Positions 17,791 to 32,600 of a DNA stretch of 64,000 nucleotides are shown in pieces. The position numbers were made by a program, and so were the translations under genes. Where the stretch lies: assembly GCF_030291075.1 (NCBI RefSeq), contig NZ_CP127407.1:1982001-2046000 (forward strand), read 5' to 3'. How positions within the stretch are numbered: the stretch's first letter is position 1; each line of letters starts with the position of its first letter. The notes below the pieces were generated by a model. The model saw nothing but the letters and a program-made list of their open reading frames with translations. It had not been told where the DNA came from and did not search any database. Source of the stretch: Stenotrophomonas sp. 57. Lineage in GTDB: Bacteria > Pseudomonadota > Gammaproteobacteria > Xanthomonadales > Xanthomonadaceae.

Positions 17791-17835
17791 CTCTCCCTCT
17801 CTCCTGGATTGATCCGGTGACGTGGCACGGACAAC

Positions 17836-17849
17836 TTGAATCGATCTAA
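17836..17849. promoter_or_regulatory. Candidate LacI-family operator, TonB-receptor promoter, proximal
   Basis: TTGAATCGATCTAA, identical to the 14-mer at 18700 in front of the GH92 operon. It lies 46 bases upstream of the receptor start. Confidence 0.72.
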
Positions 17850-17970: not shown

Positions 17971-18150
17971 GCGATGGGCGGGCGTTTTGTAGCATGGGTC
18001 GCGCATGGGCGCATGCTGCTGCGCAATATGGTACTGGCGTGGCGAAGTTATGACGGTTTGCTGAAAACAGTGAAATCGTTTTCGTGCGCAGAGGAGGGTG
18101 CGTCGGCAGGCCTGCGCCCTGCACCTGCTTCAAGCCAGGGCGACGTCTAC

Positions 18151-18177
18151 AGCCAAAGCCAAAGCCAAAGCCAAAGC
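18151..18177. repeat. Hexanucleotide tandem repeat (AGCCAA)n
   Basis: About 4.5 units of AGCCAA. In the reverse orientation it is a TTGGCT tract lying 3' of the structured repeat at 18200-18301, in the same place where the copy at 18471-18566 has a TGCTGT/TGTTGC tract (18588-18607). It therefore looks like part of the larger repeat element. Confidence 0.8.
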
Positions 18178-18199: not shown

Positions 18200-18301
18200 G
18201 GCGGGGCGGTGTCGGATTGCGGGGACGCCGTAAACCCGTCCATGGGGGCTTGGCCGCGGCATCCATGCCGCGGACACCCCGCAATCCGACACCGCCCCAC
18301 C
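18200..18301 (-). repeat. Arm-variable structured repeat, copy 1
   Basis: Read on the minus strand, outer arms of about 24 bases pair with one mismatch and enclose a core with the hairpin CCGCGGCAT-GG-ATGCCGCGG and a second hairpin AAGCCC...GGGTTT, ending GGCGTCCCC. The 5' flank (minus strand) is GGGAAACTGTCGAAG. A GCAGGTGCAGGGCGCAGG stem lies beyond the tandem repeat on the 3' side. Confidence 0.8.
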
Positions 18302-18354
18302 TTCGACAGTTTCCCGGTGACGGTTGGATTGATCCTGGTGCGGCATGGGGTCAT

Positions 18355-18395
18355 GGGGTCAGATCCGTTTTCCGTTGGAAAACGGATCTGACCCC
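18355..18395. repeat. 41-base perfect palindrome, GGGGTC type
   Basis: Arms of 19 bases (GGGGTCAGATCCGTTTTCC) pair perfectly around GTT. A related copy with 18-base arms is at 57775-57812. It sits midway between the two head-to-head structured repeats. Confidence 0.85.
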
Positions 18396-18423
18396 AATTG
18401 ATTTCGCTATCTGACAGAGATTC

Positions 18424-18446
18424 ATCCACGCATGGCGTGGATCTAC
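18424..18446. repeat. GTAG-type REP, GATCCACGC variety
   Basis: ATCCACGCATGGCGTGGAT followed by CTAC; the reverse complement begins GTAGATCCACGCCATGCGTG. An almost identical copy is at 31126-31149, also just upstream of a structured repeat. Confidence 0.8.
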
Positions 18447-18470
18447 AGATCGCGGGAATCTGTCGAAGGC

Positions 18471-18566
18471 GGGGTGGGTCCGGTTGCGGGGGCGTGAGCC
18501 GCATGGATGCGGCGATCGAGCTTACATGGACGTACTTGCAGCGTCCCCCGCAACCGGACCCACCCC
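18471..18566 (+). repeat. Arm-variable structured repeat, copy 2
   Basis: Outer arms of 22 bases (18471-18492 and 18545-18566) pair perfectly. The core holds GCCGCAT-GG-ATGCGGC and a second weaker hairpin GAGC...CTTG, then CAGCGT. The 5' flank is GGGAATCTGTCGAAGG. On the 3' side follow a TGCTGT-rich tract and the stem GCAGGGCGCAGCCCTGC (18623-18639). Confidence 0.85.
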
Positions 18567-18699
18567 GACTCCCCGCAGGAAACCAGCTTCTGCTGTTGCT
18601 GTTGCTCCAGCTTGTAGCAGGTGCAGGGCGCAGCCCTGCCGAACATCCTCATCTCATGCTGCGCCGCAGAATGCATTCGGCTGAACCTGCATGCTCTAC

Positions 18700-18713
18700 T
18701 TGAATCGATCTAA
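18700..18713. promoter_or_regulatory. Candidate LacI-family operator upstream of GH92 operon
   Basis: TTGAATCGATCTAA, identical to the receptor-proximal site at 17836. It lies 127 bases upstream of the GH92 start. Confidence 0.72.
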
Positions 18714-18840
18714 ATCCACGGTCTGGTGGGTCGGGCGTCATTCCAGGGGGAGCTCTCTGCCGATCATGGCAGGGCTCAGCGGAAGCGAGCCGGACGGCCC
18801 CGGCCGTCTGCCTCCGTGTCATCGACTACAGGAACCCGAC

Positions 18841-21306
18841 ATGCGTCCAGTGCCGTCCGCTCCCGCCGTCCCATCGACCTCGCGCCCGCTGGCGCGCCTG
18901 GCCTGCCTGCTGGCGCTTTCGGCCATGCCGATGCTGCTGCAGGCCGCGCCGGCAGCACTGGAGCGTGAGGTCAACACCTTCATCGGCAGCAAGGACGACG
19001 GCAATACCTTCCCGGGCGCGTCGGCGCCGTTCGGCCTGATCCAGGTCAGTCCGATCGGCAGCCACTATTCCGGCTGGCGCTACGACGACGAGAAGATCCG
19101 TGGCTTCGGCCATTCGTTCATTTCCGGCGCCGGTTGCTGGGAGCAGGGTGGGCAGGTGTCGATCCTGCCGGTGACCGGCAGCATCGGTCCGGGCGGTGAT
19201 TTCGATACCGGCAACGCCAAGCAGTTCGATCACAAGGCGTACGCATCGAACTACACCCATGACGGCGAGATCGGCCAGGCCGGCTACTACAAGGTGCGGC
19301 TGACCAGCTATGGCGGCATCGACGCCGAGGCGACCGCGCGCACCCGCGCCGCCGCCGAGCGCTACACCTTCAGCCAGCGCCAGGGCGAAGGCCACGTGCT
19401 GGTCAATGTCGGCCAGGCCAACGAGCGCCATTCGGTGATCGGCAGCGTGGTCGACGTGGTCGGCGACCGCGTGGTGGAAGGCAAGCTGGTCACCAAGAGT
19501 TTCTGTGGCGGCCACCAGTACACCACCTGGTTCCGCATTGAGTTCGACCGCCCGTTCAAGGCGCACGGCACCTGGGGTGAGGGCGGTGGCCTGCCCGGTG
19601 CACGCCACAGCATGGAAGGCGAGCAGAAGCCGAACGGCGCTTGGCTCAGCTTCGATCTGGCCAAGGGCCAGTCGGTGACGGCGGTCAGCGCGATCTCGCA
19701 CGTGGATGCCGAAGGCGCGCGCACCAACCTGCGCGCAGAAGGCATGCAGGGCGGCGCGCTGCTCGGTTTCGACCGCATGCGCACGTTGTCCCAGCAGTCC
19801 TGGCGCGAGCAGCTGGGACGAGTGCGGGTGCAGGGCGGTACCGCCGACGACCGCGCCGTGTTCTACAGCGCGGTCTACCACGCGCTGCTGCAGCCGATGA
19901 CCGGCAACGATGCAGACGGCCGCTACCGCGGCTACGACGATGGCATCCATCGTGCCGACGGCTGGACCTACTACGAGTACTTCTCGCTGTGGGACACCTA
20001 CCGGGCGCAGAACCAGTGGCTGGCACTGACCCGCCCGGACGTGGCGCGTGACATCGGCCGTACCCTGCTGGCGATCGACGAACAGGGCGGCTGGCTGCCG
20101 CGCTGGGGCTATGCCAACTTCGAGACCAACATCATGACCGGCGACCCGGTTACGCCGTTCATGGTCGACCTGTGGCGCTTCGGTGCACTCAAGGGCCGCG
20201 AATCGCAGGCCTGGGATGCGCTGCGCCGCAACGCCTTCGGCACGCCGCCGTTGAACTCGCGCATGGCTGGCCGCTCCGGCAACCCCACCTACCTGGACAA
20301 GGGTTATGTGGTCTACGACCGTGCTTACCCGTCCAAGGGCATGGACGTCGATCCGCACCACGGTGGCTCGGCCACACTGGAATACGCGCTGGCCGACTGC
20401 GCGCTCTCGCAGATGGCCGATGGCCTCGGCCATGCGCAGGATGCGGCGACGCTGCGTGAGCGCGGCCGCAACTGGCGCAAGGTGTGGGACCCGCAGGTGC
20501 GCGATGCCGAGACTGGCTTCACCGGTTTCCCGCGCCCGCGTACCGAGGACGGCCAGTGGTACACCCCGGCCGACGGTCACTACAGCCCGCGTTCGCATCA
20601 CGGCTTCCATGAGGGCACCGCGTGGCAGTACCAGTGGCTGGCGCAGCAGGACGTGCCGGGCCTGGTCGAAGCGATGGATGGCCGGGCGCAGGCCGGCCGC
20701 CGCCTCGATGCCTTCTTTGCGATGGATGCGCTGCAGGCCGACCCGCTCAACGCCGCCCGCAAGGAATGGGTGGTTGGGCCGTACAGTTACTATAACCAGT
20801 TCCGCTACAACCCGAACAACGAGCCGGACCTGCACTCGCCGTGGCTGTACACGCTGATCGGCCAGCCGTGGAAGACCGCCGCCGTGGTGCGCGCTGCGCA
20901 GCAGCTGTTCACCAATGCCCCCAATGGCGTGACCGGCAACGATGACCTCGGCACGATGTCGGCCTGGTACCTGTTCAGCGCCATCGGCGTGTACCCGGCG
21001 GTCCCGGGCAGCGGCCAGTTCCTGCTGCATACTCCGCGCTTCAGCAAGGTGGAAGTGGACCTGGGCAATGGCCGGACCCTGCGCATCGACGCGCCGGGCG
21101 CCGACGGCCGTCGTCTGCAGTACGTGCAGGGTGTGCAGGTCGATGGCCAGGCGCATGCGCCGGTGTGGCTGGACTGGAATCAGCTGCAGCAGGGCCCGCG
21201 CCTGCACTTCGCGCTCGATGCGACGGCGCCGGAGCAGGGCTGGGGCACGGCGGTGAAGGACCTGCCGGTGTCCTGGTGCGCGGCGCCGGGTAGCCAGCTG
21301 CGCTGA
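18841..21306 (+). CDS. GH92 family exo-alpha-mannosidase, secreted
   Basis: GH92 enzymes remove terminal alpha-linked mannose, mostly from N-glycans, using calcium. The ATG at 18841 gives 821 residues with a signal peptide ending near LLQAAPAA. Family signatures are REVNTFIGSKDDGNTFPGAS at the N terminus, YEYFSLWDTYRAQ in the middle, the acid in GFHEGTAWQYQW (Glu591), and the base motif GNDDLGTMSAWYLF (Asp701/702). Length is slightly above the usual 730-780. It heads an operon running to the beta-mannosidase and is preceded by an operator-like palindrome. Linkage preference cannot be read from sequence. Confidence 0.93.
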   Translation: MRPVPSAPAVPSTSRPLARLACLLALSAMPMLLQAAPAALEREVNTFIGSKDDGNTFPGASAPFGLIQVSPIGSHYSGWRYDDEKIRGFGHSFISGAGCWEQGGQVSILPVTGSIGPGGDFDTGNAKQFDHKAYASNYTHDGEIGQAGYYKVRLTSYGGIDAEATARTRAAAERYTFSQRQGEGHVLVNVGQANERHSVIGSVVDVVGDRVVEGKLVTKSFCGGHQYTTWFRIEFDRPFKAHGTWGEGGGLPGARHSMEGEQKPNGAWLSFDLAKGQSVTAVSAISHVDAEGARTNLRAEGMQGGALLGFDRMRTLSQQSWREQLGRVRVQGGTADDRAVFYSAVYHALLQPMTGNDADGRYRGYDDGIHRADGWTYYEYFSLWDTYRAQNQWLALTRPDVARDIGRTLLAIDEQGGWLPRWGYANFETNIMTGDPVTPFMVDLWRFGALKGRESQAWDALRRNAFGTPPLNSRMAGRSGNPTYLDKGYVVYDRAYPSKGMDVDPHHGGSATLEYALADCALSQMADGLGHAQDAATLRERGRNWRKVWDPQVRDAETGFTGFPRPRTEDGQWYTPADGHYSPRSHHGFHEGTAWQYQWLAQQDVPGLVEAMDGRAQAGRRLDAFFAMDALQADPLNAARKEWVVGPYSYYNQFRYNPNNEPDLHSPWLYTLIGQPWKTAAVVRAAQQLFTNAPNGVTGNDDLGTMSAWYLFSAIGVYPAVPGSGQFLLHTPRFSKVEVDLGNGRTLRIDAPGADGRRLQYVQGVQVDGQAHAPVWLDWNQLQQGPRLHFALDATAPEQGWGTAVKDLPVSWCAAPGSQLR

Positions 21307-21314
21307 GCCGGACT

Positions 21315-21344
21315 GTGCCGTTCGGGGTGACCCAGCGAACGGCA
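21315..21344. terminator. Stem-loop between GH92 and lacI-type gene
   Basis: GTGCCGTTCG (21315-21324) and CGAACGGCAC (21335-21344) form a perfect 10-base stem with a 10-base loop. No T run follows, so it may be a partial terminator, a processing site or an mRNA-stabilising hairpin. Confidence 0.5.
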
Positions 21345-21402
21345 CGGCACGACACGGCCCTGATCCATTAGGCTTGAGCCTTCAGCGGAGTCCGGGAAGA
21401 CG

Positions 21403-22452
21403 ATGAACGACAACGGCAGCAGTTCCAGCAAGCGCGCCGGCAAGGCGGTGACGGTGACCGACATCGCGCGTGCCATCGGTGTGTCACGGGCGACCGTGTC
21501 GCTGGTGCTGCGTGGCAGCCCGCTGGTCAATGTCGATACCCGGGCCAAGGTCGAGGCCGAGCTGCGTCGCCAGCGCTATGTATACAACCGTGCGGCAGCC
21601 AACCTGCGCCGGCGCACCTCGTCGAGCATCGCGCTGGTGATCAATGATCTGTCCAACCCGTTCTTCGCCGAATTTGCGTCCGGCGTGGACGAGGCGTTGG
21701 GCGGGCGCGGCTACGTAACATTGCTGGGCAGCACCGGCGAATCTCCCGAGCGGCAGCAGGCGGTGCTGTCAACGCTGATGGAGCACACCCCCGCCGGCTT
21801 GATCCTGTCACCGGCCGAGGGCAGCGACACCGCGCAGCTGCGCCAGGTACTGGGTGCCAACGCCAACGTGCTGCTGTTCAATCGCGAACTGGACGGCGCC
21901 GACTGGGACTTCCTGACCCTGGACAACCAGCACGGTGCCTATCTGGCCACGCGCCACCTGATCGAGCGTGGCCATCGCCAGATCGCTTTCTTCGGTGGTC
22001 ACGCTGCATCGAGCTCGTGCCACCAGCGCCGCGCAGGCTTCCAGCAGGCGCTGGCCGAGGCTGGGTTGTCGTTGCCGCCAGGCTGGATGATCGAGTCGGC
22101 GCCGAACCGCCTGGAAGCCGCGGCGCGTACCGATGAGTTGTTCGCCGACGGCCATCGCCCGAGTGCGGCGGTCTGCTACAACGACACCGTTGCGCTGGGC
22201 CTGATGCTGGGCTTGAATTCACGTGGCATCCGTCCGGGTGGTGATTTTGCCGTTACCGGTTTCGATGACATTTCCGAGGCGGCGGTGGCCGTGCCGCCGT
22301 TGACCACGCTCACCGCCGACCCGCGCGAGCGTGGCCGGCAAGCTGCCGCGCTGCTGCTGCAGCGGCTGGACGAACCGGATGCGCCGCCGCGGCGCACGGT
22401 GGCGCCGGTGCAGTTGCGCATCCGCGAAAGCAGTGCCGCACGACCGAACTGA
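21403..22452 (+). CDS. LacI-family transcriptional regulator of the mannoside locus
   Basis: The 349-residue product has a LacI helix-turn-helix (VTDIARAIGVSRATVSLVLRG) and hinge (YNRAAANLRRRTSSSIALVI), followed by a periplasmic-binding-like effector domain with NDLSNPFF and TGFDDISEA motifs. LacI-type proteins bind palindromes with a central CG, as in the ATCGAT-centred sites at 17836, 17957 and 18700. Its place between the alpha-mannosidase and the sugar permease points to control of this locus by mannose or a mannoside; the effector is inferred. Confidence 0.92.
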   Translation: MNDNGSSSSKRAGKAVTVTDIARAIGVSRATVSLVLRGSPLVNVDTRAKVEAELRRQRYVYNRAAANLRRRTSSSIALVINDLSNPFFAEFASGVDEALGGRGYVTLLGSTGESPERQQAVLSTLMEHTPAGLILSPAEGSDTAQLRQVLGANANVLLFNRELDGADWDFLTLDNQHGAYLATRHLIERGHRQIAFFGGHAASSSCHQRRAGFQQALAEAGLSLPPGWMIESAPNRLEAAARTDELFADGHRPSAAVCYNDTVALGLMLGLNSRGIRPGGDFAVTGFDDISEAAVAVPPLTTLTADPRERGRQAAALLLQRLDEPDAPPRRTVAPVQLRIRESSAARPN

Positions 22453-22512
22453 TTCCTTCCACGTACCCCTTCCACGCAACAACGACCTTCCGCGCATCGA
22501 GGCGCGTACCGC

Positions 22513-23826
22513 ATGCCGATCTCCGCAACGCCCCGTCCATCGGGTTCTTCGGGCAACGCACCTGCCGTCACCAACGGCAAGGCGCTGGCCGTGGTCACCA
22601 CGATCTTCTTCATGTGGGGCTTCCTGACCTGCCTCAATGACATCCTGATCCCGCATTTGAAAGCGGTGTTCGAGCTGAACTACGCCAAGGCGATGCTGGT
22701 GCAGTTCACCTTCTTCGGCACCTATTTCCTGATGTCGCTGCCGGCCGGTCGGCTGGTGGCGGCGCTGGGTTACAAGAAGGGCATCGTGGCCGGCCTGGTG
22801 ATCGCCGGCATCGGCGCGCTGGGCTTCTGGCCGGCGGCGGAACTGCGCGTGTATGGCGCCTTCCTCGGCGCACTGTTCGTGCTGGCCACCGGCATTACCG
22901 TGCTGCAGGTCGCTGCCAATCCTTACGTCGCGTTGCTGGGCCCGGAGCAGACCAGCTCCAGCCGCCTGACCCTGGCGCAGGCGCTGAACTCGCTGGGCAC
23001 GGCCATCGCCCCGATCTTCGGCGGCATGCTGATCCTGTCCAACACGGTCAAGAGCGCTGACGACATCGCGGCGCTGCCGGCCGCCGAGCAGCTGGCCTAC
23101 CGTGCCGCCGAGGCGCAGGCCGTGCAGGGTCCGTACGTGGGCCTGGCCGTGGCGCTGGTGCTGCTGGCGCTGTTCGTGTTCCTGTTCCGCCTGCCGGCGC
23201 TGAGCGACGCCACCGAGCAGGCCGACCAGGGCCACCACCACAGCTACCTGGATGCGCTGCGCAAGCGCCACCTGCTGCTGGGCGTGCTGGGCATCTTCTT
23301 CTACGTCGGCGCCGAAGTGTCAATCGGCAGCTTCCTGGTCAACTACCTGTCGATGCCCAACATCGGTGGCTTCAGCGAACAGGAAGCCACGCACTACGTG
23401 TCGGCCTACTGGACGATGGCGATGATCGGCCGCTTCGCCGGCTCCGCGCTGCTGGCTCGCTTCTCACCGAGCCGACTGCTGGCGATCTTCGCGCTGGTCA
23501 ACGTGGCGCTGCTGGTCACCACCATGCTGAGCTCCGGCAACATCGCGCTGTACTCGGTGGTGGCGATCGGCCTGTTCAATTCCATCATGTTCCCGACCAT
23601 CTTCGCGCTGAGCATCGAGCGCCTGGGCCCGCTGACCAACAAGGGCTCCAGCCTGCTGATCATGGCCATCGTCGGCGGTGCCGTGGTGCCGTACCTGCAG
23701 GGCGTGCTGGCCGACCACATTGGTGTGCAGGCCAGCTTCATCCTGCCGCTGCTGTGCTACGGCTACATCATCTTCTATGGACTGGTCGGCGCACGTACGC
23801 CGGCTTCCGCAACGCAGGGAGGCTGA
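22513..23826 (+). CDS. Sugar MFS transporter (FucP/GluP type)
   Basis: A 437-residue inner-membrane proton symporter of the fucose/glucose-galactose family, with about 12 hydrophobic segments and the family signatures FFMWGFLTCLNDILIPHLK near the N terminus and FNSIMFPTIFALSIERLG in the second half. It lies 60 bases after the regulator and just before a sugar kinase and an epimerase/isomerase-family gene. Mannose is the likely substrate from context. Confidence 0.9.
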   Translation: MPISATPRPSGSSGNAPAVTNGKALAVVTTIFFMWGFLTCLNDILIPHLKAVFELNYAKAMLVQFTFFGTYFLMSLPAGRLVAALGYKKGIVAGLVIAGIGALGFWPAAELRVYGAFLGALFVLATGITVLQVAANPYVALLGPEQTSSSRLTLAQALNSLGTAIAPIFGGMLILSNTVKSADDIAALPAAEQLAYRAAEAQAVQGPYVGLAVALVLLALFVFLFRLPALSDATEQADQGHHHSYLDALRKRHLLLGVLGIFFYVGAEVSIGSFLVNYLSMPNIGGFSEQEATHYVSAYWTMAMIGRFAGSALLARFSPSRLLAIFALVNVALLVTTMLSSGNIALYSVVAIGLFNSIMFPTIFALSIERLGPLTNKGSSLLIMAIVGGAVVPYLQGVLADHIGVQASFILPLLCYGYIIFYGLVGARTPASATQGG

Positions 23827-23833
23827 GTCCGGA

Positions 23834-24829
23834 ATGGGTTCCATCGTTTGCTTCGGCGAAATTTTGATCGATCTACTAGCGCAGCCGGCGGCTTCGGCCG
23901 ACACGCCGCGCGCGTTCCTGCAGTACGCCGGTGGTGCGCCGGCCAATGTTGCAGTGGCGGCAGCGCGCCTCGGTGCGACGACCCAGTTCGTCGGCATGCT
24001 GGGCCGCGACATGTTCGGTGACTTCCTGGCTGACAGCCTGGTCGAACACGGCGTTGGCACGGATTACATCGCGCGTACCGATGCGGCCAAGACCGCGCTG
24101 GCCTTCGTCGCGCTGGATGCCAGCGGCGAGCGCAGCTTCAGTTTCTACCGCCCGCCGGCCGCCGATCTGCTGTTCCGTGACAGTGACTTCCAGGCCGCCT
24201 GCTTCGACAGCGCGCAGTGCTTCCACGTCTGTTCCAACAGCCTGACCGAGCCCTCCATCGCCGAGGCGACCTTCGCCGGCATGGAGCGCGCGCGTGCCGC
24301 CGGTGCGGTGGTCAGCCTCGACCTCAATCTTCGTCCGGCCCTCTGGCCGGCCAACGAGGACCCGACGCCGCGCCTGTGGCAGGCGCTGGAGCGTGCCGAC
24401 CTGGTCAAGCTGTCGCGCGAGGAGCTGGACTACCTGGCGGCACCGCTGGGTGCCGATGGGGAGGCCGTGGTGCTGAAGCGTCTGCTGGCGGCGCAGGCAC
24501 GCTGGGTCATCGTTACCGATGGCGCGGCCACGCTGCACTGGTATACCCGCGGCAACCACGGCACGGTCACCAGCTTCCGCGTGGCCACCGTCGATACCAC
24601 GGCCGCCGGCGATGCCTTCGTCGGTGGCGTGCTGGTCGGCCTGCTGGAGCGGGGCGGGGCCGGTGCAGGTTTCGCCGCGTTCTGCCAGGACCCGGAGGCG
24701 ATCACCGCCACGCTGCGCTTTGGCGCCGCCGTGGGTGCGCTGGCTGTTACCCGCAAGGGCGCGTTCGCCGCGATGCCCTCGCTCGATGAAGTGCAGCAGC
24801 TGCTGCAGGCCCAGGACATTACCGCATGA
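23834..24829 (+). CDS. PfkB-family carbohydrate kinase, probable fructokinase
   Basis: The 331-residue product begins GSIVCFGEILIDLLAQP, has the substrate loop YAGGAPANVAVAAARLG and the ATP/catalytic signature DTTAAGDAFVGGVL with Asp260 as the base. With the adjacent AGE-family isomerase it would convert mannose to fructose-6-phosphate via fructose. The start at 23834, eight bases after the permease stop, is preferred over an upstream frame inside the permease. Near the start the rare codons TTG, CTA and CTA coincide with an operator-like ATCGAT sequence. Its ATGA stop/start overlap couples it to the next gene. Confidence 0.9.
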   Translation: MGSIVCFGEILIDLLAQPAASADTPRAFLQYAGGAPANVAVAAARLGATTQFVGMLGRDMFGDFLADSLVEHGVGTDYIARTDAAKTALAFVALDASGERSFSFYRPPAADLLFRDSDFQAACFDSAQCFHVCSNSLTEPSIAEATFAGMERARAAGAVVSLDLNLRPALWPANEDPTPRLWQALERADLVKLSREELDYLAAPLGADGEAVVLKRLLAAQARWVIVTDGAATLHWYTRGNHGTVTSFRVATVDTTAAGDAFVGGVLVGLLERGGAGAGFAAFCQDPEAITATLRFGAAVGALAVTRKGAFAAMPSLDEVQQLLQAQDITA

Positions 24830-26052
24830 GCCCCTCGCCCGATTTTCGTTCACCCGCGTTCCTGCGTGCGCATATCGCCGACACGATGGCGTTCTACCAC
24901 CCGCGCTGCATCGATCCGAACGGCGGCTTCTTCCACTACTTCCGTGATGACGGCAGCATCTACGACGCCAGCCACCGCCACCTGGTGAGCAGCACGCGCT
25001 TTGTCTTCAACTACGCGATGGCCTACCGCGAGTTCGGCAATGCCGAATACCGCGACGCCGTCGAGCACGGCGTGCGCTACCTGCGCGAGGTGCATCGCAA
25101 TCCGGCCACTGGCGGTTACGCCTGGACCCTGCGCGACGGCAAGGTCGAGGACGACATGAACCACTGCTACGGTGTGGCGTTCGTGCTGCTGGCCTACAGT
25201 TGTGCGCTGAAGGCCGGCCTCGAGCAGGCCCGCGCATGGATGGACGAGACCTGGCAGCTTCTCGAGGCGCGCTTCTGGGAGCCGCAGCACGGCCTGTACA
25301 AGGACGAGGCCGATGGCCAGTGGAACTTCACCGGCTACCGCGGCCAGAACGCCAACATGCACATGTGCGAGGCGATGCTGGCGGCGTTCGAGGCCAGTGG
25401 CGAGCAGCGCTACGTGGAACGCGCGCTGCAACTGGCCGAGAACATGACCCGCCGCCAGGCCGCCAAGGCCGGTGGCCTGGTCTGGGAGCACTACGATTCC
25501 AACTGGGAGATCGACTGGGACTACAACCTGGACGACCCCAAGCACCTGTTCCGCCCATGGGGCTTCCAGCCGGGCCACCAGACCGAGTGGGCCAAGCTGC
25601 TGCTGATCCTGGACCGCCATGTGCAGGCCGACTGGCTGGTGTCGACCGCGCAGCATCTGTTCGATGTGGCCGTGGCCCGCAGCTGGGATGAGTCGCGTGG
25701 CGGCCTCTACTACGGTTTCGCGCCGGAATCGCGCCGCCAGCCGGGCATGGAGGGCGCCCCGATCGGTGGCGACAGCTTCGTCTGCGACGACGACAAGTAC
25801 TTCTGGGTGCAGGCCGAAACGCTGGCTACCGCGGCGCTGATGGCCAAGCGCACTGGTGATGACCGCTACTGGCAGTGGTACGAGCGCATCTGGGCGTACG
25901 CGTGGGAGCACTTCGTCGACCACCAGTACGGCGCCTGGTTCCGCATCCTCGATGCCGACAACCGCAAGTACAGCGACGAGAAGAGCCCGGCTGGCAAGGT
26001 GGATTACCACACCATGGGCGCGTGCTACGAAGTGTTGAACGTGGTGCGTTGA
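24826..26052 (+). CDS. AGE-family sugar isomerase, probable mannose isomerase
   Basis: The 408-residue (alpha/alpha)6-barrel protein belongs to the N-acylglucosamine 2-epimerase family. Features include FHYFRDDGSIYDASHRHLVSS, RGQNANMHMCEAMLAA and WGFQPGHQTEWAKLL, with the conserved His residues that do the proton transfer. Members split into N-acyl epimerases and aldose-ketose isomerases such as mannose isomerase. The coupling to a fructokinase-like gene and position among mannosidases favour D-mannose to D-fructose conversion. GlcNAc/ManNAc epimerase activity is the alternative. Confidence 0.85.
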   Translation: MSPSPDFRSPAFLRAHIADTMAFYHPRCIDPNGGFFHYFRDDGSIYDASHRHLVSSTRFVFNYAMAYREFGNAEYRDAVEHGVRYLREVHRNPATGGYAWTLRDGKVEDDMNHCYGVAFVLLAYSCALKAGLEQARAWMDETWQLLEARFWEPQHGLYKDEADGQWNFTGYRGQNANMHMCEAMLAAFEASGEQRYVERALQLAENMTRRQAAKAGGLVWEHYDSNWEIDWDYNLDDPKHLFRPWGFQPGHQTEWAKLLLILDRHVQADWLVSTAQHLFDVAVARSWDESRGGLYYGFAPESRRQPGMEGAPIGGDSFVCDDDKYFWVQAETLATAALMAKRTGDDRYWQWYERIWAYAWEHFVDHQYGAWFRILDADNRKYSDEKSPAGKVDYHTMGACYEVLNVVR

Positions 26053-26056
26053 GGTT

Positions 26057-26124
26057 GGTACGCCGGGCATGGCCCGGCACTGCCATGAACTGGAATTGCA
26101 GGTAGCGCCGGGCCCTGCCCGGCG
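26057..26124. repeat. Pair of GTAG-type REP units
   Basis: CGCCGGGCATGGCCCGGC lies near 26061, and GTAGCGCCGGGCCCTGCCCG begins at 26102. They are in the 90-base gap between the isomerase and beta-mannosidase genes, so they are probably transcribed within the operon. Confidence 0.75.
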
Positions 26125-26142
26125 GAAAAACAGGAGCATCCC

Positions 26143-28761
26143 GTGCATCGCCTTCCCCTCGTTGTCCGCCTGCTCCTGCTGCTGATCGCAGTCTCCGCGT
26201 TCCCTGCACTGGCGGCCCCGCTGCAGGCGCAGTGGGAATTCCGCATGCTGCCCGGCGACGCGCAGGGTGCGGCCCATCCCGGTCTACAGCAGTGGCGTGC
26301 GGCCCAGGTGCCCGGCAGCGTGCACACCGACCTGCTGGCCCACGCGCTGATCCGCGATCCCTACGTTGGCGCGCCGGAGGCCGAGCTGCAGTGGATCGGC
26401 CTGGCGGACTGGGAGTACCGCGCCCGCTTCGACGTGGATGCCGCGACGCTGGCCAAGCCCAATGCCGAACTGCGCTTCGACGGCCTGGATACCTACGCCG
26501 AGGTCGAGCTCAACGGCAAGCCGCTGCTGCGCGCGGACAACGCACACCGCACATGGCGCGCTCGGGTCGAAGGCCGCCTGCGAGCGAAAGACAATGAACT
26601 GCAGATCGTGTTCCGTTCGCCGATCCGCACGCTGTTGCCGGGCGTGCAGGCAATGCCGCACAAGATCGCCGGCAACTACCCGTCGCCGTATGGCGACGAG
26701 CCGAAGGACGCTATGGTCGGCAACTTCGCACGCAAGCCGGCTTACCACTTCGGCTGGGACTGGGGCCCGCGCTATGTCACCGCCGGCGTCTGGCGCGGTG
26801 TCCACCTGCAGGCCTGGGATACGCATCGATTGACCGATGTGGCCGTGCGCACTGATGCATTGAGCGCCGAGCAGGCGAAGCTGGCGGTGCTGCTGCAGGT
26901 CGAGCAGGGCGCGGCGGCGGGCTCGGCCGTGGTGCAGGTGGATGTGCAGGATCCGCAGGGCCGCAGCGTGGCCCAGGTGCAGCGCACGGTGCTGCTGACG
27001 CCCGGCCAGAACAGCGTCGAGGTTCCGGTTGAACTGGCCGATCCGCAGCGCTGGTGGCCAGTCGGCCACGGCGCGCAGGACCGCTACACGGTGCAGGCCC
27101 GCCTGGACGATGGTGGCACGCCGGAGCTGGCCCGTGAGCAGCGCATCGGCCTGCGCACGGTCGAACTGCGCCGTGAGGAAGACGGCAAGGGCGGGCAGGG
27201 CTTTGCCTTCGTCATCAACGGCGTGCCGATCTTCGCCAAGGGCGCCAACGTCATTCCGTTCGACGCCTTCCCCGCACGTGTCGATGCCGCACGCCTGCGC
27301 CAGGTGCTGGTGGCGGCGCGTGATGCCAACATGAACATGCTGCGCAACTGGGGTGGCGGCTATTACGAGGACGACGCGTTCTTCGACATCGCTGACGAGC
27401 TGGGGCTGCTGGTCTGGCAGGATTTCATGTTCGGCGGTGGCATGCAGCCGGGTTACGATCCGGCGTTCCGCGCCAGCGTGGTCGCCGAGGCGCGCGACAA
27501 CGTGCGCCGGCTGCGCCATCACCCCAGCATCGTGCTGTGGTGTGGCAACAACGAAGAAGAAACCGCCTGGAAGGACTGGGGCCACGGCCGCGACCTGAAG
27601 GCGGCCGATCCGGCGTTCGCGGCGAAGGTCTGGCAGGGTTACGTGGGCCTGTTCGGCAACGATCTGCGCGCGGTGGTGGGCGAGGAAGGGCTTGGCGTGC
27701 CGTACTGGTCCAGTTCGCCCAGCAATGATCTGGACGAGAAGGCCAACGATTCCACCCGCGGCGACAAGCACTACTGGCAGGTGTGGGGCAATCCGGCGCT
27801 GCCGGTGCAGGCCTACCTGCGGGAGACGCCGCGCTTCATGTCCGAGTACGGTCTGCAGGCATGGCCATCGGTGGCCACGGTGGACCAGATCGCCACCCGT
27901 GCCGAACAGCGCATCGACAGCCCGGTGATCCGCGCACACCAGAAGTTCATGGCCGGTGAGGGCAACAGTCGCCTGCTGCACTACATTGAACTTGGCTACG
28001 GCACGCCGAAGGATTTCGAGGACTTCGTCTACCTCAGCCAAGTGATGCAGGCCGATGGCATCGCCCTGGCAGCGTTGCATCACCGCGCCTCGCGGCCGTA
28101 CACGATGGGCTCGCTGTACTGGCAGCTCAACGACGTCTGGCCGGGCGCTTCCTGGTCCAGCGTGGACTATTTTGGCCGCTGGAAGGCACTGCATTTCGCC
28201 GCGCGGCGCTTCTTCGCGCCGGTGACCGTGGCGGCGCTGCGTGACGAGGGCCGCACGCGGGTGCGCCTGATCAATGATGGCGCCGCGCAGGATGCGCGTT
28301 GGCGGCTGCGGGTGATGGACGTGGAGGGCAAGGTGCTGCGCCGCCGTGAGGAAGAGGTCGCATTGGCGGCGGAAGGTGTTACCTCGATCGGTGATTTCCG
28401 CGACGCGGAGCTGCTGGCCGGTGCCGACCCGAGGCGTACGGTGGCGGTGTTCGAGCTGCTGCAGCACGACACGGTGAGTGCGCGGCAGGTGGTCGGATTC
28501 GTCGAAGCCAGGGACCAGGTGCTGCCGCGGCAGAAGCTGAAGGCGACCCTCGCCATCGAAGGCGACCACTATCGTCTGCGGCTGCAGAGCGCGGCCTATG
28601 TACGTGCGGCGTGGATCGACTTCGGTGCACTGGAGGTGCAGGTGGAAGACAACCTGCTGGACCTGCTGCCGGGCGAGACGCGCGACATCGCGGTGCGTGG
28701 CCCGGTGGACCTGACGAACCTGCGCGACGCGCTGAAGGTGAAGACCCTCAACGATCGTTGA
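26143..28761 (+). CDS. GH2 beta-mannosidase, secreted
   Basis: The 872-residue protein would remove the beta-linked mannose of the N-glycan core or of beta-mannans. The GTG start at 26143 has AGGAG six bases upstream and a signal peptide ending near PALAAP. After jelly-roll and Ig-like domains, the barrel carries the acid/base Glu471 in WCGNNEEE and the nucleophile Glu568 in FMSEYGLQAWPS. The HFGWDWGPR and RNWGGGYYE motifs are typical of beta-mannosidases. It is the last gene of the operon. Confidence 0.93.
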   Translation: MHRLPLVVRLLLLLIAVSAFPALAAPLQAQWEFRMLPGDAQGAAHPGLQQWRAAQVPGSVHTDLLAHALIRDPYVGAPEAELQWIGLADWEYRARFDVDAATLAKPNAELRFDGLDTYAEVELNGKPLLRADNAHRTWRARVEGRLRAKDNELQIVFRSPIRTLLPGVQAMPHKIAGNYPSPYGDEPKDAMVGNFARKPAYHFGWDWGPRYVTAGVWRGVHLQAWDTHRLTDVAVRTDALSAEQAKLAVLLQVEQGAAAGSAVVQVDVQDPQGRSVAQVQRTVLLTPGQNSVEVPVELADPQRWWPVGHGAQDRYTVQARLDDGGTPELAREQRIGLRTVELRREEDGKGGQGFAFVINGVPIFAKGANVIPFDAFPARVDAARLRQVLVAARDANMNMLRNWGGGYYEDDAFFDIADELGLLVWQDFMFGGGMQPGYDPAFRASVVAEARDNVRRLRHHPSIVLWCGNNEEETAWKDWGHGRDLKAADPAFAAKVWQGYVGLFGNDLRAVVGEEGLGVPYWSSSPSNDLDEKANDSTRGDKHYWQVWGNPALPVQAYLRETPRFMSEYGLQAWPSVATVDQIATRAEQRIDSPVIRAHQKFMAGEGNSRLLHYIELGYGTPKDFEDFVYLSQVMQADGIALAALHHRASRPYTMGSLYWQLNDVWPGASWSSVDYFGRWKALHFAARRFFAPVTVAALRDEGRTRVRLINDGAAQDARWRLRVMDVEGKVLRRREEEVALAAEGVTSIGDFRDAELLAGADPRRTVAVFELLQHDTVSARQVVGFVEARDQVLPRQKLKATLAIEGDHYRLRLQSAAYVRAAWIDFGALEVQVEDNLLDLLPGETRDIAVRGPVDLTNLRDALKVKTLNDR

Positions 28762-28777
28762 GGGGTATCCCGCTTTG

Positions 28778-28805
28778 GTAGGTGCCAACCAAGGTTGGCA
28801 TCTAC
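28778..28805. repeat. GTAG REP palindrome between convergent operons
   Basis: GTAG, TGCCAACC, GGTTGGCA and CTAC form a near-perfect 28-base palindrome. It lies between the convergent ends of the beta-mannosidase and mtnC and may serve as a bidirectional transcript end. Confidence 0.75.
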
Positions 28806-28813
28806 CCGTCGCT

Positions 28814-29509
28814 TCACAGCTGGATCTGCTGGAAGTTCTCGACCCGCTCATGGCCGTTGGCAGCCTGGCCGGTGCGCGGCAGCGGGTAGTCGTCCAGGCG
28901 GTCGATCAGGCGGGTCTGCAGGCCGGCTTCACGGGCGGCGTCCAGCTCTTCGACCACATCCGACAGGAACAGGATCTCGCCGGCCGGTACGCCGATCGCC
29001 TGCACGATGCGGCGGTAGCTGTCGGCCTCACGCTTGCCGCCGACTTCGGTATCGAACCAGCCCGACACCAGCGGGCTGAGGTCGCCGGCATCGCTGAAGC
29101 CGAAGAACAGCTTCTGCGCCGGCACCGAGCCGGAGGAGTACACGTAGAGCGGCAGGCCCGAGGCGTGCCAGCCCTTCAGCACTGCCGCCACTTCCGGGTA
29201 GAAGTGCGCGGTGTAGTCACCACGGCGGTAACCGGCATCCCAGATCCGGCCCTGCAGGGCCTTCAGCGCAGTGTGCTTGCGGTCCTGGTCGATCCAGCCC
29301 TGCAGCGTTTCGACCACCAGGCTGTCCTGGCAGGCACCCCCGATCTCGGTGGCCACCGCATCCAGCCAGCGGCGCACGTCCGGCTCCTGGCCGTGTTCGG
29401 CGACGAAGCCGGGCAGCGCCTGGCGCGCATAGGGGAACAGCACGTTCTTGACGAACGAGATGCTGCTGGTGGTGCCTTCGATATCGGTCAGGATGACGCG
29501 GGGCTGCAT
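28814..29509 (-). CDS. mtnC: Acireductone synthase (enolase-phosphatase E1)
   Basis: MtnC is a HAD-superfamily enzyme of the methionine salvage pathway that enolises and dephosphorylates 2,3-diketomethylthiopentyl-1-phosphate to acireductone. The 231-residue product has the HAD motif I variant [14 protein letters not shown], motif II YVYSSGS, the conserved Lys in GGKREADSY, and motif [15 protein letters not shown]. It starts three bases after the mtnD stop, in the same operon. Confidence 0.96.
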
Positions 29510-29512
29510 GGA

Positions 29513-30070
29513 TCAGGATGCCTGGGTGGGTACGTAACGGGGGAACTTCTGTGCGATGTCGGTGCCGGTGAAGTGACCGACCCAGCCATCCGGCTCGGTG
29601 AAGAAGCGGATCGCCACGAAGCTGGGTTCATCGCCCATGTCGAACCAATGCGTGGTGCCATCGGGCACGGCGATCAGGTCGTCCTTCACGCACTCGATCT
29701 CGTAGACCTTGTCTTCCACGTGCAGGGTGAACAGGCCGGAGCCGGCGACAAAGAAGCGCACTTCGTCTTCCTTGTGGAAGTGTTCGTCGAGGAACTTCTT
29801 GCGCAGCTCGGCGCGGTTCGGGTTATCCGGGGCGATCGAGGCCACATCCACGCTCTTGAAGCCGCGCTCGGCGACCAGGCGGTCGATGTCGGCGCGGTAG
29901 GCGGCGAACACTTCATCTTGGCTGGCGCCGGGCGCGACCGGGGCAGTGGCCTGCCAGCGTTCGAAGGTGACGCCGATCTGCTTCAGCTCGGCAGCGATGC
30001 GTGCGCCGTCCTGGGTGTCCAGCAGCGGCGATTCGGGGCGGGTGTCGTCGTAGATGCGCAGTCGGCTCAT
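29513..30070 (-). CDS. mtnD: Acireductone dioxygenase
   Basis: MtnD oxidises acireductone to the 2-keto precursor of methionine (iron form) or to an off-pathway product (nickel form). The 185-residue cupin starts [15 protein letters not shown] and has the metal ligands in [13 protein letters not shown] (two His and one Glu) and in GTTHWFDMG (His). Its start is 30070; a longer frame from 30292 lacks family similarity. mtnB lies 92 bases upstream. Confidence 0.95.
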
Positions 30071-30162
30071 GGCGGCAGCTTGAACGTCTCGGGGGGAAGA
30101 CAGGGTAGCAGGGCGGGGGCGGGGCGCAGATTCCGGATCGGCATCTGCACCTGCGCGTGGGT

Positions 30163-30804
30163 TCAGCCGCGCAGCTTGCGCAGTTCCAGCTCGCAGTGGA
30201 ACAGGAACTCGAAGGCCTCCAGGTGACGGCGGGCCTCGGCCATGTCGCGGCCCCAGGCGTACAGCCCGTGGCCATCGATCAGGTAGCCCCACAGGTTCTG
30301 CCGGTCGAGCAGGTCGTCGACCTGGGCCGACAGCACGTCCATGTCCTGGGTGTTGGCGAACACCGGTACGTCCACGGCCATTTCATGGGTGCTGTTGCCG
30401 GCGAAGGCCTTCAGCAGCTCGTAGCCCTCCAGGTGCACATGGCCCTGCGGCGCGTACAGGCGCGAGGCGATGGTCTGCACCGGCGAATGGGTGTGCAGCA
30501 CGCAGCCGATTTCCGGGAAGCGGCGGTACAGCTGGGTGTGCAGCAGGGTTTCGGCGGACGGACGCAGCGGGCGGCCGACGGCCTTGCCGTCGAAGTCCAC
30601 CACCATGATGTCGTCCTCGATCAGGCGGCCCTTGTCCTTGCCGGAGACGGTGATCGCGGCGTGGCGGTCGTCCAGGCGGTGCGAGAAGTTGCTGCTGGTG
30701 GCGGGGGTCCAGCCGGCCTGGGCCAGCTCGCGGACGTTGTCGATCAGCAGCTGGGCCAGTTCGCCCAGGCGGGCGGTGTCGTACGGGAAGGTGGGGGCGT
30801 TCAT
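30163..30804 (-). CDS. mtnB: Methylthioribulose-1-phosphate dehydratase
   Basis: MtnB dehydrates methylthioribulose-1-phosphate in methionine salvage. The 213-residue class II aldolase-fold protein has zinc ligands in HTHSPVQT and a further His near DGHGLYAWG. The ATG at 30804 ([14 protein letters not shown]) is preferred to a TTG nine codons earlier. Gene order mtnB-mtnD-mtnC covers three consecutive chemical steps; mtnA and mtnK or equivalent are not in the window. Confidence 0.94.
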
Positions 30805-30876
30805 GCGGGTGATTTTACTGGATTCGGCCAACGGCTGAGCCCCTCGTGGCGGGTCTCAGAAGCAGATTCCGTGGGT

Positions 30877-30981
30877 TGGCCGGTCGGGTGGGCTGCGCAG
30901 GGGACGCCGTGAACCCGTCCATGGGGCTTGGCCGCGGCATCCATGCCGCGGACACCCCTTCACAGCCCACCCGACCGGCCA
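30877..30981 (-). repeat. Arm-variable structured repeat, copy 3
   Basis: On the minus strand, arms around TGGCCGGTCGGGTGGGCTG pair with each other and enclose the core hairpin CCGCGGCAT-GG-ATGCCGCGG and a CATGGACGGG segment, then GGCGTCCCC. The core is almost identical to copy 1, while the outer arms are unrelated in sequence. The minus-strand 5' flank is GGAAACTGTCC. Confidence 0.8.
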
Positions 30982-31057
30982 TGGACAGTTTCCGTGCGCG
31001 CCAGCCACGGAGTGAAGAAGGAAGAGCGAAAAGCGGGTCGCGGCGCTGCGCTTGCTC

Positions 31058-31082
31058 GCAGCGGAGCATGGCTCCGCTCTAC
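31058..31082. repeat. GTAG-type REP monomer
   Basis: GCAGCGGAGCATGGCTCCGC followed by TCTAC; a single palindromic unit ending in the reverse complement of GTAG. Confidence 0.7.
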
Positions 31083-31125
31083 AGAGGATTCATCGACCAG
31101 AGAAAATTCATTTCCCGGATGAATT

Positions 31126-31149
31126 CATCCACGCATGGCGTGGATCTAC
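31126..31149. repeat. GTAG-type REP, GATCCACGC variety
   Basis: CATCCACGCATGGCGTGGAT followed by CTAC, nearly identical to the copy at 18424-18446. Confidence 0.8.
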
Positions 31150-31200
31150 CGGATACTCCGGGAGACTGTCAGGGGTGGGGAGGCATGGGTTCGCGGGGGT

Positions 31201-31203
31201 GTC
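31201..31203. repeat. 3-bp target-site duplication, left copy
   Basis: GTC directly abuts the left IS terminus; the matching GTC is at 32456-32458 directly after the right terminus. Confidence 0.8.
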
Positions 31204-31241
31204 TGATCTGGCCCCCTGAAAACGGACGCCATGAAGCCGTT

Positions 31242-32102
31242 TCATGCGACAGCCGGGAGCTGCCGGGCGTAGTTGTTAGGCGAGCGATAGCCCAGCGCCG
31301 AGTGTAGCCGGGCTGGATTATAGAAGCCGTGGATGTAAGCAGCGATGGATTGGCTGGCTTGTTCCCTACTGGCGTAAGGCTCGGCAGCCTCTTCTGTCTT
31401 GAGCGTCGCAAAGAAGCTCTCGGCCACCGCGTTGTCCCAGCAATTGCCAGGCCGGCTCATGCTTTGGACCACGTCATGGGACTGCAGCAGCTGGCGAAAC
31501 TGGTTCCCCCAGTACTGCCCACCACGATCTGAATGGAAGATCAGGCCGGGTCGTTGTGGATGCAGAGCCCAAGCATTGGCAAATGCTTTCACCACCAGCT
31601 CTTCAGTCAGGCGCTTGGAAACGCTGTAGCCCAGCACCTGCCGGGTCTGGACGCTGATGACCACGGCCAGATGCAGCCATCCCTGACGGGTGGGGACATA
31701 CGTGATATCCCCGACCCACGCCGTCGGTCCGGTTCCGGGGGCAAATTGCCGATCCAGCAGGTTGGGGGCGAGCTGAGATGAGCCGCCGGAGGACTTGGGT
31801 CGAGATCGGCCTTTGGTCTTGCCCTGGATTCGCTCCTGGGCCATTAGCCGTGCCACGCGCTTGTGGCCGACCGGGTGATTCCTGGCTCGTAAGGCCTCGA
31901 CCAGCCGACGTCGCCCATAACTGCGCTTGCTGGTCACATGAATGGCCCGAAGCTCGGTACGGAGGGCCGAATCGACATCGCACGTTTGGGCACACTGCCG
32001 GCGCAGGTAGTCATGGAATCCAGAGATAGAAACTCCAAGAACCCGACACAACAACCTAGTCGGGTAGTGAGTCCTTTGACTGGCGACGAAGGCGTACCTC
32101 AC
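31242..32102 (-). CDS. IS3-family transposase OrfB (DDE integrase catalytic domain)
   Basis: The 286-residue frame carries the integrase core with the DDE residues in WVGDITYVPT, IFHSDRGGQYW and NAVAESFFATLKTE, preceded by an HTH_21-like region (RHRAIHV-type arginine-rich helix: AIHVTSKRSYGRRRLVEAL). The upstream frame is open back to the A7 run in orfA, so the active product is probably an OrfAB fusion made by -1 frameshift. No disrupting stop is visible. Confidence 0.94.
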   Translation of the reverse strand: MRYAFVASQRTHYPTRLLCRVLGVSISGFHDYLRRQCAQTCDVDSALRTELRAIHVTSKRSYGRRRLVEALRARNHPVGHKRVARLMAQERIQGKTKGRSRPKSSGGSSQLAPNLLDRQFAPGTGPTAWVGDITYVPTRQGWLHLAVVISVQTRQVLGYSVSKRLTEELVVKAFANAWALHPQRPGLIFHSDRGGQYWGNQFRQLLQSHDVVQSMSRPGNCWDNAVAESFFATLKTEEAAEPYASREQASQSIAAYIHGFYNPARLHSALGYRSPNNYARQLPAVA

Positions 32103-32392
32103 TTGGACTCTCTGGCAAAGAACGCCGCCGCTTTTTTTAGGATTTCCCGCTCCATCTTCAGATTGGCGTTCTCGGCCCGAAGGCGGCTGATCTCGCTTTC
32201 CAGATCGGTGGCCGGCCTGCGAGCCTCAGAGGTCAACGACCGGCCAGCACGGACCGCGTCAAGCCAATTTGCCAGCGTCTTGACCGACATCTCTAGCTGA
32301 CGGGCCGCTGCGGCAGGCCCGAGCGACTCGGCCAACTCCACGGCTTGGTGCTTGAACTCATCGGTGTAGCTACGACGGGTGAGACGGGACAT
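32099..32392 (-). CDS. IS3-family transposase OrfA (HTH domain)
   Basis: The 97-residue protein has a helix-turn-helix (YTDEFKHQAVELAESLG...AAARQLEMSVKTLANWL) and a C-terminal leucine-zipper-like coiled coil (DLESEISRLRAENANLKMEREILKKAA). The slippery sequence CTAAAAAAAG encodes LKK near its end. It overlaps orfB by four bases. Confidence 0.94.
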   Translation of the reverse strand: MSRLTRRSYTDEFKHQAVELAESLGPAAAARQLEMSVKTLANWLDAVRAGRSLTSEARRPATDLESEISRLRAENANLKMEREILKKAAAFFARESK

Positions 32393-32600
32393 AAGGGACC
32401 TCCAAGTGCGATCAAAGTATCGCTTCTTGGCGTCCGCTGACGGGGGGCCAGATCAGTCAGCCGCATGGATGCGGCTGCCAAGCCTACAGGGACGTACTTG
32501 CGGCGTCCCCCGCGTACCCATGCCTCCCCGCCAAACCAACACACCCGCTCTTGCCGTTGCTCCGGCGGGTGCAGGGCCGCAGGCCCTGCAAAACAACCCC

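Follow-up and report, generated by a model that had tools for sequence, protein, structure and literature searches.

We analysed a window of 64,000 nucleotides (nt) from Stenotrophomonas sp. 57 (contig NZ_CP127407.1, positions 1,982,001 to 2,046,000), whose genome is a single contig of 4.44 Mb. The protein at 24826-26049 of the window is 98% identical to relatives in strains of the Stenotrophomonas maltophilia group, in keeping with this genus. The window holds four copies of a structured repeat of about 100 nt, which an earlier note, made from the letters of the window, had located correctly. The repeat resembles TwoAYGGAY RNA: a long basal stem encloses two hairpins, each with a GGA-bearing loop. 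Copy 1 (18200..18301, minus strand) is a whole three-way junction. Its basal stem pairs 18277-18301 with 18200-18224 (96% complementary), hairpin 1 lies at approximately 18254-18273 and hairpin 2 at approximately 18227-18249, and the loop GGA triplets occupy 18262-18264 and 18239-18241 on the minus strand. Copy 2 (18467..18570, plus strand) is equally whole, with arms at 18467-18492 and 18545-18570 (96% complementary) and loop GGA at 18505-18507 and 18528-18530. Copy 3 (30877..30981, minus strand) has arms at 30877-30903 and 30955-30981 that are 93% complementary.

Copy 4, on the plus strand, is interrupted by an IS3-like insertion sequence. The left part (31174..31203) carries the 5' arm and the start of the junction, while the right part (32456..32532), just before which GTC is repeated, carries hairpin 1, hairpin 2 and the 3' arm; the arms (31174-31199 and 32507-32532) are 92% complementary across the insertion. 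The inserted element (31204..32455, minus strand) has GTC on both sides and a minus-strand transposase open reading frame (ORF) at 31242-32102, with rve integrase-core and HTH_21 domains. The core described in the earlier note, namely a GG-loop hairpin, a second hairpin at CATGGACG and a closing strand GCGTCCCC, is present.

The fold is a three-way junction made of a basal stem of about 26 base pairs, whose sequence is free, and two hairpins. In hairpin 2, two stems of 3 bp, one lower and one upper, are separated by a bulge of 5 nt on the 3' side. RNA folding of the three uninterrupted window copies gave z-scores of -9.2, -8.5 and -7.4 against shuffled sequences. We aligned 39 diverse copies (alignment A2: 35 from the source genome, 2 from Stenotrophomonas sp. 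ISL-67 and 2 from Xanthomonas sp. LMG 31884), excluding those with insertions or odd ends. Pairing is kept in 96.8% of the 1623 pair cells, compared with 67.8% after shuffling and 39.6-45.6% with slid partners. Both sides have changed in 37 of the 42 pairs, and doubly changed cells number 431 against 133 in shuffles. Hairpin 1 varies among copies through compensating changes, as had been proposed: its base is GA/GA in 14 of the 39 rows and Watson-Crick in most others, and the ISL-67 copies have AT-rich hairpin-1 stems under an identical loop. The upper stem of hairpin 2 reads CCC/GGG in 17 rows, TAC/GTA in 16, TCC/GGA in 5 and TAA/GTA in 1.

A second alignment (A3, 38 rows, from reading 34 stretches of other genomes) behaves in the same way: 97.0% of cells pair against 58.7% when shuffled, with stems replaced throughout, these counts retaining one antisense row of a true copy and one weak match. 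Both exact CANGGANG loop sites are found in 32 of its 38 rows, one in 4 and none in 2. Stems that are replaced yet paired, under loops that are mostly kept, indicate that the covariance model R1, built from A2, is not merely catching long palindromes. Covariation in every helix, within A2 and in other genomes, bears out the suggestion of selection on a three-way-junction structure.

The repeat is far more abundant than the four copies of which the earlier note knew, the genome holding more than 100. A core pattern with at most 3 mismatches gave 120 genome matches, compared with 12 for a reversed-pattern control; the 75 stretches around the listed places held 121 core-like matches, 101 of them with well-scored complementary arms. 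Of 150 own-genome candidates scored with R1, 133 reached E<=0.01, though some of these are weak and at least one lies antisense to a copy already counted; a search of 81 own-genome stretches gave 111 matches at E<=1e-10. In the window, copies 1, 2 and 3 score 110.4, 107.8 and 101.5 bits, and the right part of copy 4 (genome 2014438-2014533) 42.4 bits. This search, of the kind the earlier note had proposed, recovered many copies with variable, pairing arms. At 85% identity, the arms of the 101 well-scored copies fall into 47 clusters, with sizes of 23, 11, 10, 6, 5, 3, 2 and 2 plus 39 singletons. The earlier note's view that arms differ completely between copies is thus corrected, many of them falling into shared arm families.

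The common flanks hold up as well. Of 100 copies looked at, 88 have a CTGTC-like motif close to the 5' arm, and hexamer tracts and a GCAGGGCGCAGCCCTGC-type palindrome follow many copies downstream. The tandem hexamers vary by copy at one place downstream (TTGCTG, TTGACG and TTGGCT types; for instance window 18590-18606). Short variants devoid of hairpin 1, reading ...GGGGGTCACTTCA(T/G)GGACGG... or GGAGGTCGCTTCAGGGACGG, occur at genome positions 2662374, 3360046 and 81225.

Both hairpin loops look like CsrA/RsmA-type ANGGA sites, a point that the earlier note missed. Among 228 distinct copies of the source and other genomes, 196 have CANGGANG in both loops: 100 of the 111 own matches (one site in the other 11) and 96 of the 117 distinct matches at other loci, where 20 have one site and 1 has none (122 matches less 5 repeats). 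These counts include the copies from which R1 was built (35 own, 4 others). Copies without both sites comprise true losses of GGA, GGA kept in altered surroundings, insertions and cuts at contig ends. The distance from GGA to GGA is 20 nt in 189 of the 196 copies with both sites. In A2, the hairpin 1 loop is AUGGAU in 38 of 39 rows and ACGGAU in one, always closed by a C-G pair. The hairpin 2 loop is A-N-GGA in all 39, where N is T in 21, G in 11, C in 4 and A in 3; the base after ANGGA is C in 26, T in 11, A in 1 and G in 1, and the closing pair is C-G in 38 of 39. Position N is therefore free, while the A, the GGA and the closing C-G are kept.

This is the feature by which CsrA/RsmA-binding RNAs are recognised, an ANGGA hairpin loop placed directly on a stem. 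The high-affinity RsmE consensus is reported as an ANGGAX hexaloop directly on a stem (PMC4005645), and the Rsm motif has been named as 5'CANGGANG3' (PMC6849547). CsrA dimers are described as bridging sites 10-63 nt apart, best at more than 18 (PMC7652899). Most CsrA hairpins selected by SELEX (systematic evolution of ligands by exponential enrichment) have 4 base pairs or fewer according to the same source, so that hairpin 2 fits better than the longer hairpin 1. In two loci (L124:3262-3447 and L131:16125-16304), an insertion of about 75 bases starting GGGTGAGGGCGCTTTGCTTGCGAAGC sits within the hairpin 2 loop.

Read along the ANGGA strand, the mispairs of the basal stem tell which strand's fold is kept. 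Double-stranded DNA or copying from arm to arm predicts G.T to be about as frequent as A.C, since reading the other strand swaps the two. The 111 own matches contain 77 G.U, 12 A.C and 77 other mispairs; the 117 distinct others 121, 10 and 63; and 60 distinct copies outside the family 53, 7 and 33. Mismatch-neutral scoring of 95 copies left 63 G.U against 8 A.C, or 47 against 7 as distinct events. In the short core stems, mispairs are too scarce to inform the comparison (G.U versus A.C: 3 versus 6 in own copies, 9 versus 8 in others). The excess of G.U over A.C indicates that the ANGGA strand is the one whose fold is kept, and RNA is the plain reading of this bias. The same test is applicable to other palindromic repeats, where it separates RNA from strand-neutral DNA palindromes.

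The element is widely but patchily distributed. Match listings for relatives and for the class and phylum samples used stricter filters than the search of the source genome. R1 matched 84 of 150 genomes of relatives, the source included. Within the genus 74 of 90 have matches, and elsewhere in the order 10 of 60. At least 150 matches were counted in each of X. hortorum and Xanthomonas sp. LMG 31884, 64 in X. phaseoli and 34 in Stenotrophomonas sp. ISL-67, while ten genomes of the order's other families have 3 to 46. In an even sample of the class, matches at E<=1e-3 occur in 73 of the 369 genomes and in 65 of the 271 genera. All 33 positives among the 398 genomes of a phylum sample came from the same class or nearer; as the share of other classes in that sample is not shown, we make no claim beyond the class.

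The source genome has one PF02599 (CsrA) match. Within the class sample, restricted to genomes with a completeness of 90% or more and a contamination of 5% or less, CsrA is present in 60 of the 61 that bear the element and in 220 of the 253 that do not (P=0.006). For all 369 the figures are 68 of 73 and 245 of 296 (P=0.03), the overlap of the two lists being counted by eye.

Our preferred reading, to which we assign a probability of roughly 0.6 from these sequence patterns, is that each copy may be a structured RNA element offering two CsrA/RsmA-binding hairpins to one CsrA dimer. Transcription of the ANGGA strand would either run on beyond the ends of genes or start at a promoter lying between the two copies of a pair. 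The transcript would then fold into the three-way junction, presenting on its long, free-sequence basal stem two C-G-closed ANGGAN hexaloops 20 nt apart. Together, the more than 100 dispersed copies could form a distributed sink for RsmA, or act as tags that put the transcripts carrying them under RsmA control. Copies would spread and be exchanged, often as divergent pairs within intergenic mosaics rich in repetitive extragenic palindromic (REP) sequences, by some mobility or gene-conversion process. In a divergent pair, a transcript arriving from either side would read one copy in sense, and unlike arms would stop the two copies from pairing together.

If the binding is true, the element would be a large reservoir of sites, two consensus sites in each of more than 100 copies, lying below Rfam cut-offs in this genome. 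It would link intergenic repeats with post-transcriptional control. A bolder version, which we put forward only tentatively, holds that Xanthomonadaceae carry a distributed RsmA sponge, as do many other Gammaproteobacteria: an intergenic repeat that amplifies and undergoes gene conversion, and whose cargo is an RNA three-way junction binding one CsrA dimer. Were it true, the strength of Csr/Rsm regulation would be set in part by repeat copy number and read-through, and the repeat might persist by engaging its host's global regulator.

Several observations weigh against the RNA reading. One exact CANGGANG site is missing from 11 of the 111 own copies, in some by true loss of GGA. Hairpin 1 is long and usually GC-rich, unlike most SELEX-selected CsrA hairpins. 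Single copies beside co-directional genes show no preference for the sense strand (7 sense, 9 antisense), and read-through into a divergent pair meets the antisense copy first. Strand-biased mutation, or a phase in which the DNA is single-stranded, could also produce the G.U bias. The association with CsrA is consistent but weak, because CsrA is common and kinship was ignored. Finally, 5 of the 73 element-bearing genomes lack a CsrA match; four of these are less than 90% complete, but one (G352) is 98% complete.

The arrangement of the copies bears on the strongest alternative. Neighbouring genes were taken from a simple ORF chooser based on G+C at third codon positions, with 106 of the 121 core-like matches used. 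These make up 76 sites: 30 pairs closer than 700 nt and 46 single copies. All 30 close pairs are divergent, the minus copy on the left and the plus copy on the right, with core-to-core distances of 253-409 nt. Arms within a pair are less alike than arms re-paired at random (0.58 versus 0.64, P=0.004). Near-identical arm pairs number 1 against 3.0 expected, which is not significant (P=0.15).

Copies 1 and 2 form such a pair, site 1 of the window. The paired unit is bounded by an outer left inverted repeat (18103..18159), which has a GCAGGCCTGCGCCCTGC-type palindrome and is 81% complementary to 18586-18642, and an outer right one (18586..18642) made of a TGTTGC tract and a GCAGGGCGCAGCCCTGC palindrome. 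Outside these, the 15-mer CTTGAATCGATCTAA occurs at 17835-17849 and 18699-18713, flanking the unit upstream of both divergent genes; it looks like a shared operator. At the orthologous site, most relatives that have the left copy show a different arm type and a different hairpin 1, changed together, while at one locus (L127) the left copy is of the same type as in the source genome. Judged from the sequences compared, this joint change looks like replacement of the whole module. The alternative process of the earlier note, in which one arm is copied from the other, therefore has partial support, although strand-neutral copying leaves the excess of G.U over A.C unexplained. We looked for a clean empty site with a target duplication; one locus (L134) lacks the unit, with about 40 other bases in its stead and no readable duplication.

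The element could be a mobile element acting at the DNA level only, of the REP, MITE (miniature inverted-repeat transposable element) or TIR (terminal inverted repeat) type, with a single-stranded hairpin recognised by a transposase, loops serving as protein contacts and no role as RNA. We consider this unlikely, although much agrees with it: high copy number, intergenic scatter and patchy occurrence (74 of 90 genus genomes), invariably inverted close pairs, exchange of modules and mobile-type palindromes nearby. The excess of G.T over A.C, too, could arise through an intermediate of single-stranded DNA. However, no copy lies within about 1.5 kb on either side of the 3 PF01797 tyrosine transposase loci of the source genome, nor of 25 such loci in 8 relatives. 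In addition, the consensus of the loops, with its free N, and their 20-nt spacing agree with what is known of CsrA; the contacts of a transposase need not show such agreement.

Less probable still is a bidirectional 3'-end element, be it a terminator, an mRNA stabiliser or an RNase III site, in which the loops would be incidental. The gene context speaks for it: 31 of the 76 sites lie between convergent genes and 32 between co-directional ones, with only 3 between divergent genes, 8 inside called ORFs that may be spurious and 2 with a neighbour missing. The long, stable basal stem also agrees. Yet window site 1 is itself one of the 3 between divergent genes, the flanks examined show no constant U-tract after the element, and this explanation has no place for two ANGGA loops whose spacing is fixed and which persist throughout the class on stems that are replaced. 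A neutral palindrome whose arms stay complementary through template switching or gene conversion is very improbable. The whole-module replacement at site 1 and the arm families common to copies are in its favour, but 198 G.U stand against 22 A.C over both sets, and the short hairpins covary too.

Other elements insert into or lie beside the repeat. The IS3-like element of copy 4 is present at the identical spot, the boundary of basal stem and hairpin 1, in four copies (genome 776792-778031, 2013204-2014443, 2885644-2886883 and 3214367-3215606) and one remnant near 658186; in 3 of the 4, the three flanking bases are equal on both sides (GTC/GAC). The stretches read had been chosen for the repeat, so that insertions elsewhere would be missed. 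At seven places (loci L046, L051, L058, L059, L062, L076 and L103; approximate genome positions 263046, 491610, 778368, 802030, 896345, 1848645 and 3646527), hairpin 1 has given way to, or is broken up by, a small sequence rich in hairpins that ends ...GCGCAGGACAGCGCACACGAGCAAGC; this sequence may be another small mobile element targeting the repeat. In distant genomes, three loci (L265, L269 and L270) show extra inverted repeats outside the basal stem, which may be the termini of a larger mobile unit.

Between copies 1 and 2, and separate from the element, lies a TIR-type palindrome (18354..18396) of a family built as GGGGTCAGATCC[variable]GGATCTGACCCC, with an inner stem that is variable yet paired. 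Further members lie at 1295-1335, 2073-2113, 2200-2240, 2327-2367 and 2454-2494 of locus L198 of strain D457, where they flank a PF01797 gene. We also considered whether the element is itself the TIR of a RAYT/TIRYT transposon; this was rejected, as the D457 tyrosine transposase loci, which we infer to correspond to the 1152 and 4509 genes, bear other palindromes (GGGGTCAGATCC... and the like) and no element copy. The 1152 TIR repeats of K279a are described as self-complementary and mostly close together (PMC3733652). An attC-like site of integrons was likewise considered and set aside.

Among intergenic repeats, the element thus shares several traits with the GTAG REPs (SMAG) and TIRYT repeats of S. 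maltophilia, which are reported as intergenic palindromes, often in inverted pairs and mostly downstream of genes (PMC3733652). It differs from TIRYT repeats in having no copy beside a PF01797 gene, the repeats at the D457 tyrosine transposases being other sequences. A GTAG REP, a palindrome of 20-40 bp with an unpaired GTAG end, is ruled out: with about 100 nt, three helices and no GTAG foot, the element is distinct from these, as the earlier note had held. Searching the literature by title and opening of the abstract, with subscription papers and supplements mostly outside coverage, we found no description of the repeat in Stenotrophomonas or Xanthomonas.

The earlier note knew of no named family with this design, but TwoAYGGAY RNA (RF01731) has it. 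Rfam in gathering mode gave no match in the window and no element copy in 37 other loci. In permissive mode, RF01731 aligns from end to end with copy 1 at 41.8 bits, under the cut-off of 43, and a distant copy (L261) at 44.0 bits, which the gathering scan did not list. MicroRNA and Ysr224 matches in the permissive scans were far under their cut-offs. In the source genome, none of 9 RF01731 matches passes the cut-off. Across the same 369 class genomes, RF01731 passes it in 15 and R1 matches 73, both searches with strict filters. Since the own-genome copies fall below the cut-off, we call the element a TwoAYGGAY-like relative and not a member.

In both, the basal stem carries two hairpins, ordered alike and with AG between them, whose loops are of the AYGGAY type, and RF01731 is likewise multi-copy in several genomes of the class sample. 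The TwoAYGGAY design is present in outline, hairpin 2 being broader than AYGGAY: loop 2 of our element accepts any base at the Y position. In its hairpin 2, the upper stem is short and a UUNAC bulge lies on one side, whereas the Rfam consensus stem is longer. TwoAYGGAY RNA is listed for the human gut, gammaproteobacteria and Clostridiales (PMC2864571), is described with tandem G-A pairs in one stem and has been proposed to bind CsrA (PMC4333381).

The element bears on the question of what counteracts Csr/Rsm in Xanthomonadaceae. In Xanthomonas genomes, one report found CsrB, CsrC and RsmV/W/X/Y/Z to be without significant homologues, and it presents RsmU as a new RsmA-sequestering small RNA (PMC7694677). 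Like CsrB/CsrC, RsmX/Y/Z and RsmU, whose GGA-bearing hairpins are reported to bind CsrA/RsmA (PMC7652899, PMC7694677), the element carries GGA-bearing hairpins. Those small RNAs come from one or few loci with several sites each, while the element has two sites per copy in more than 100 copies.

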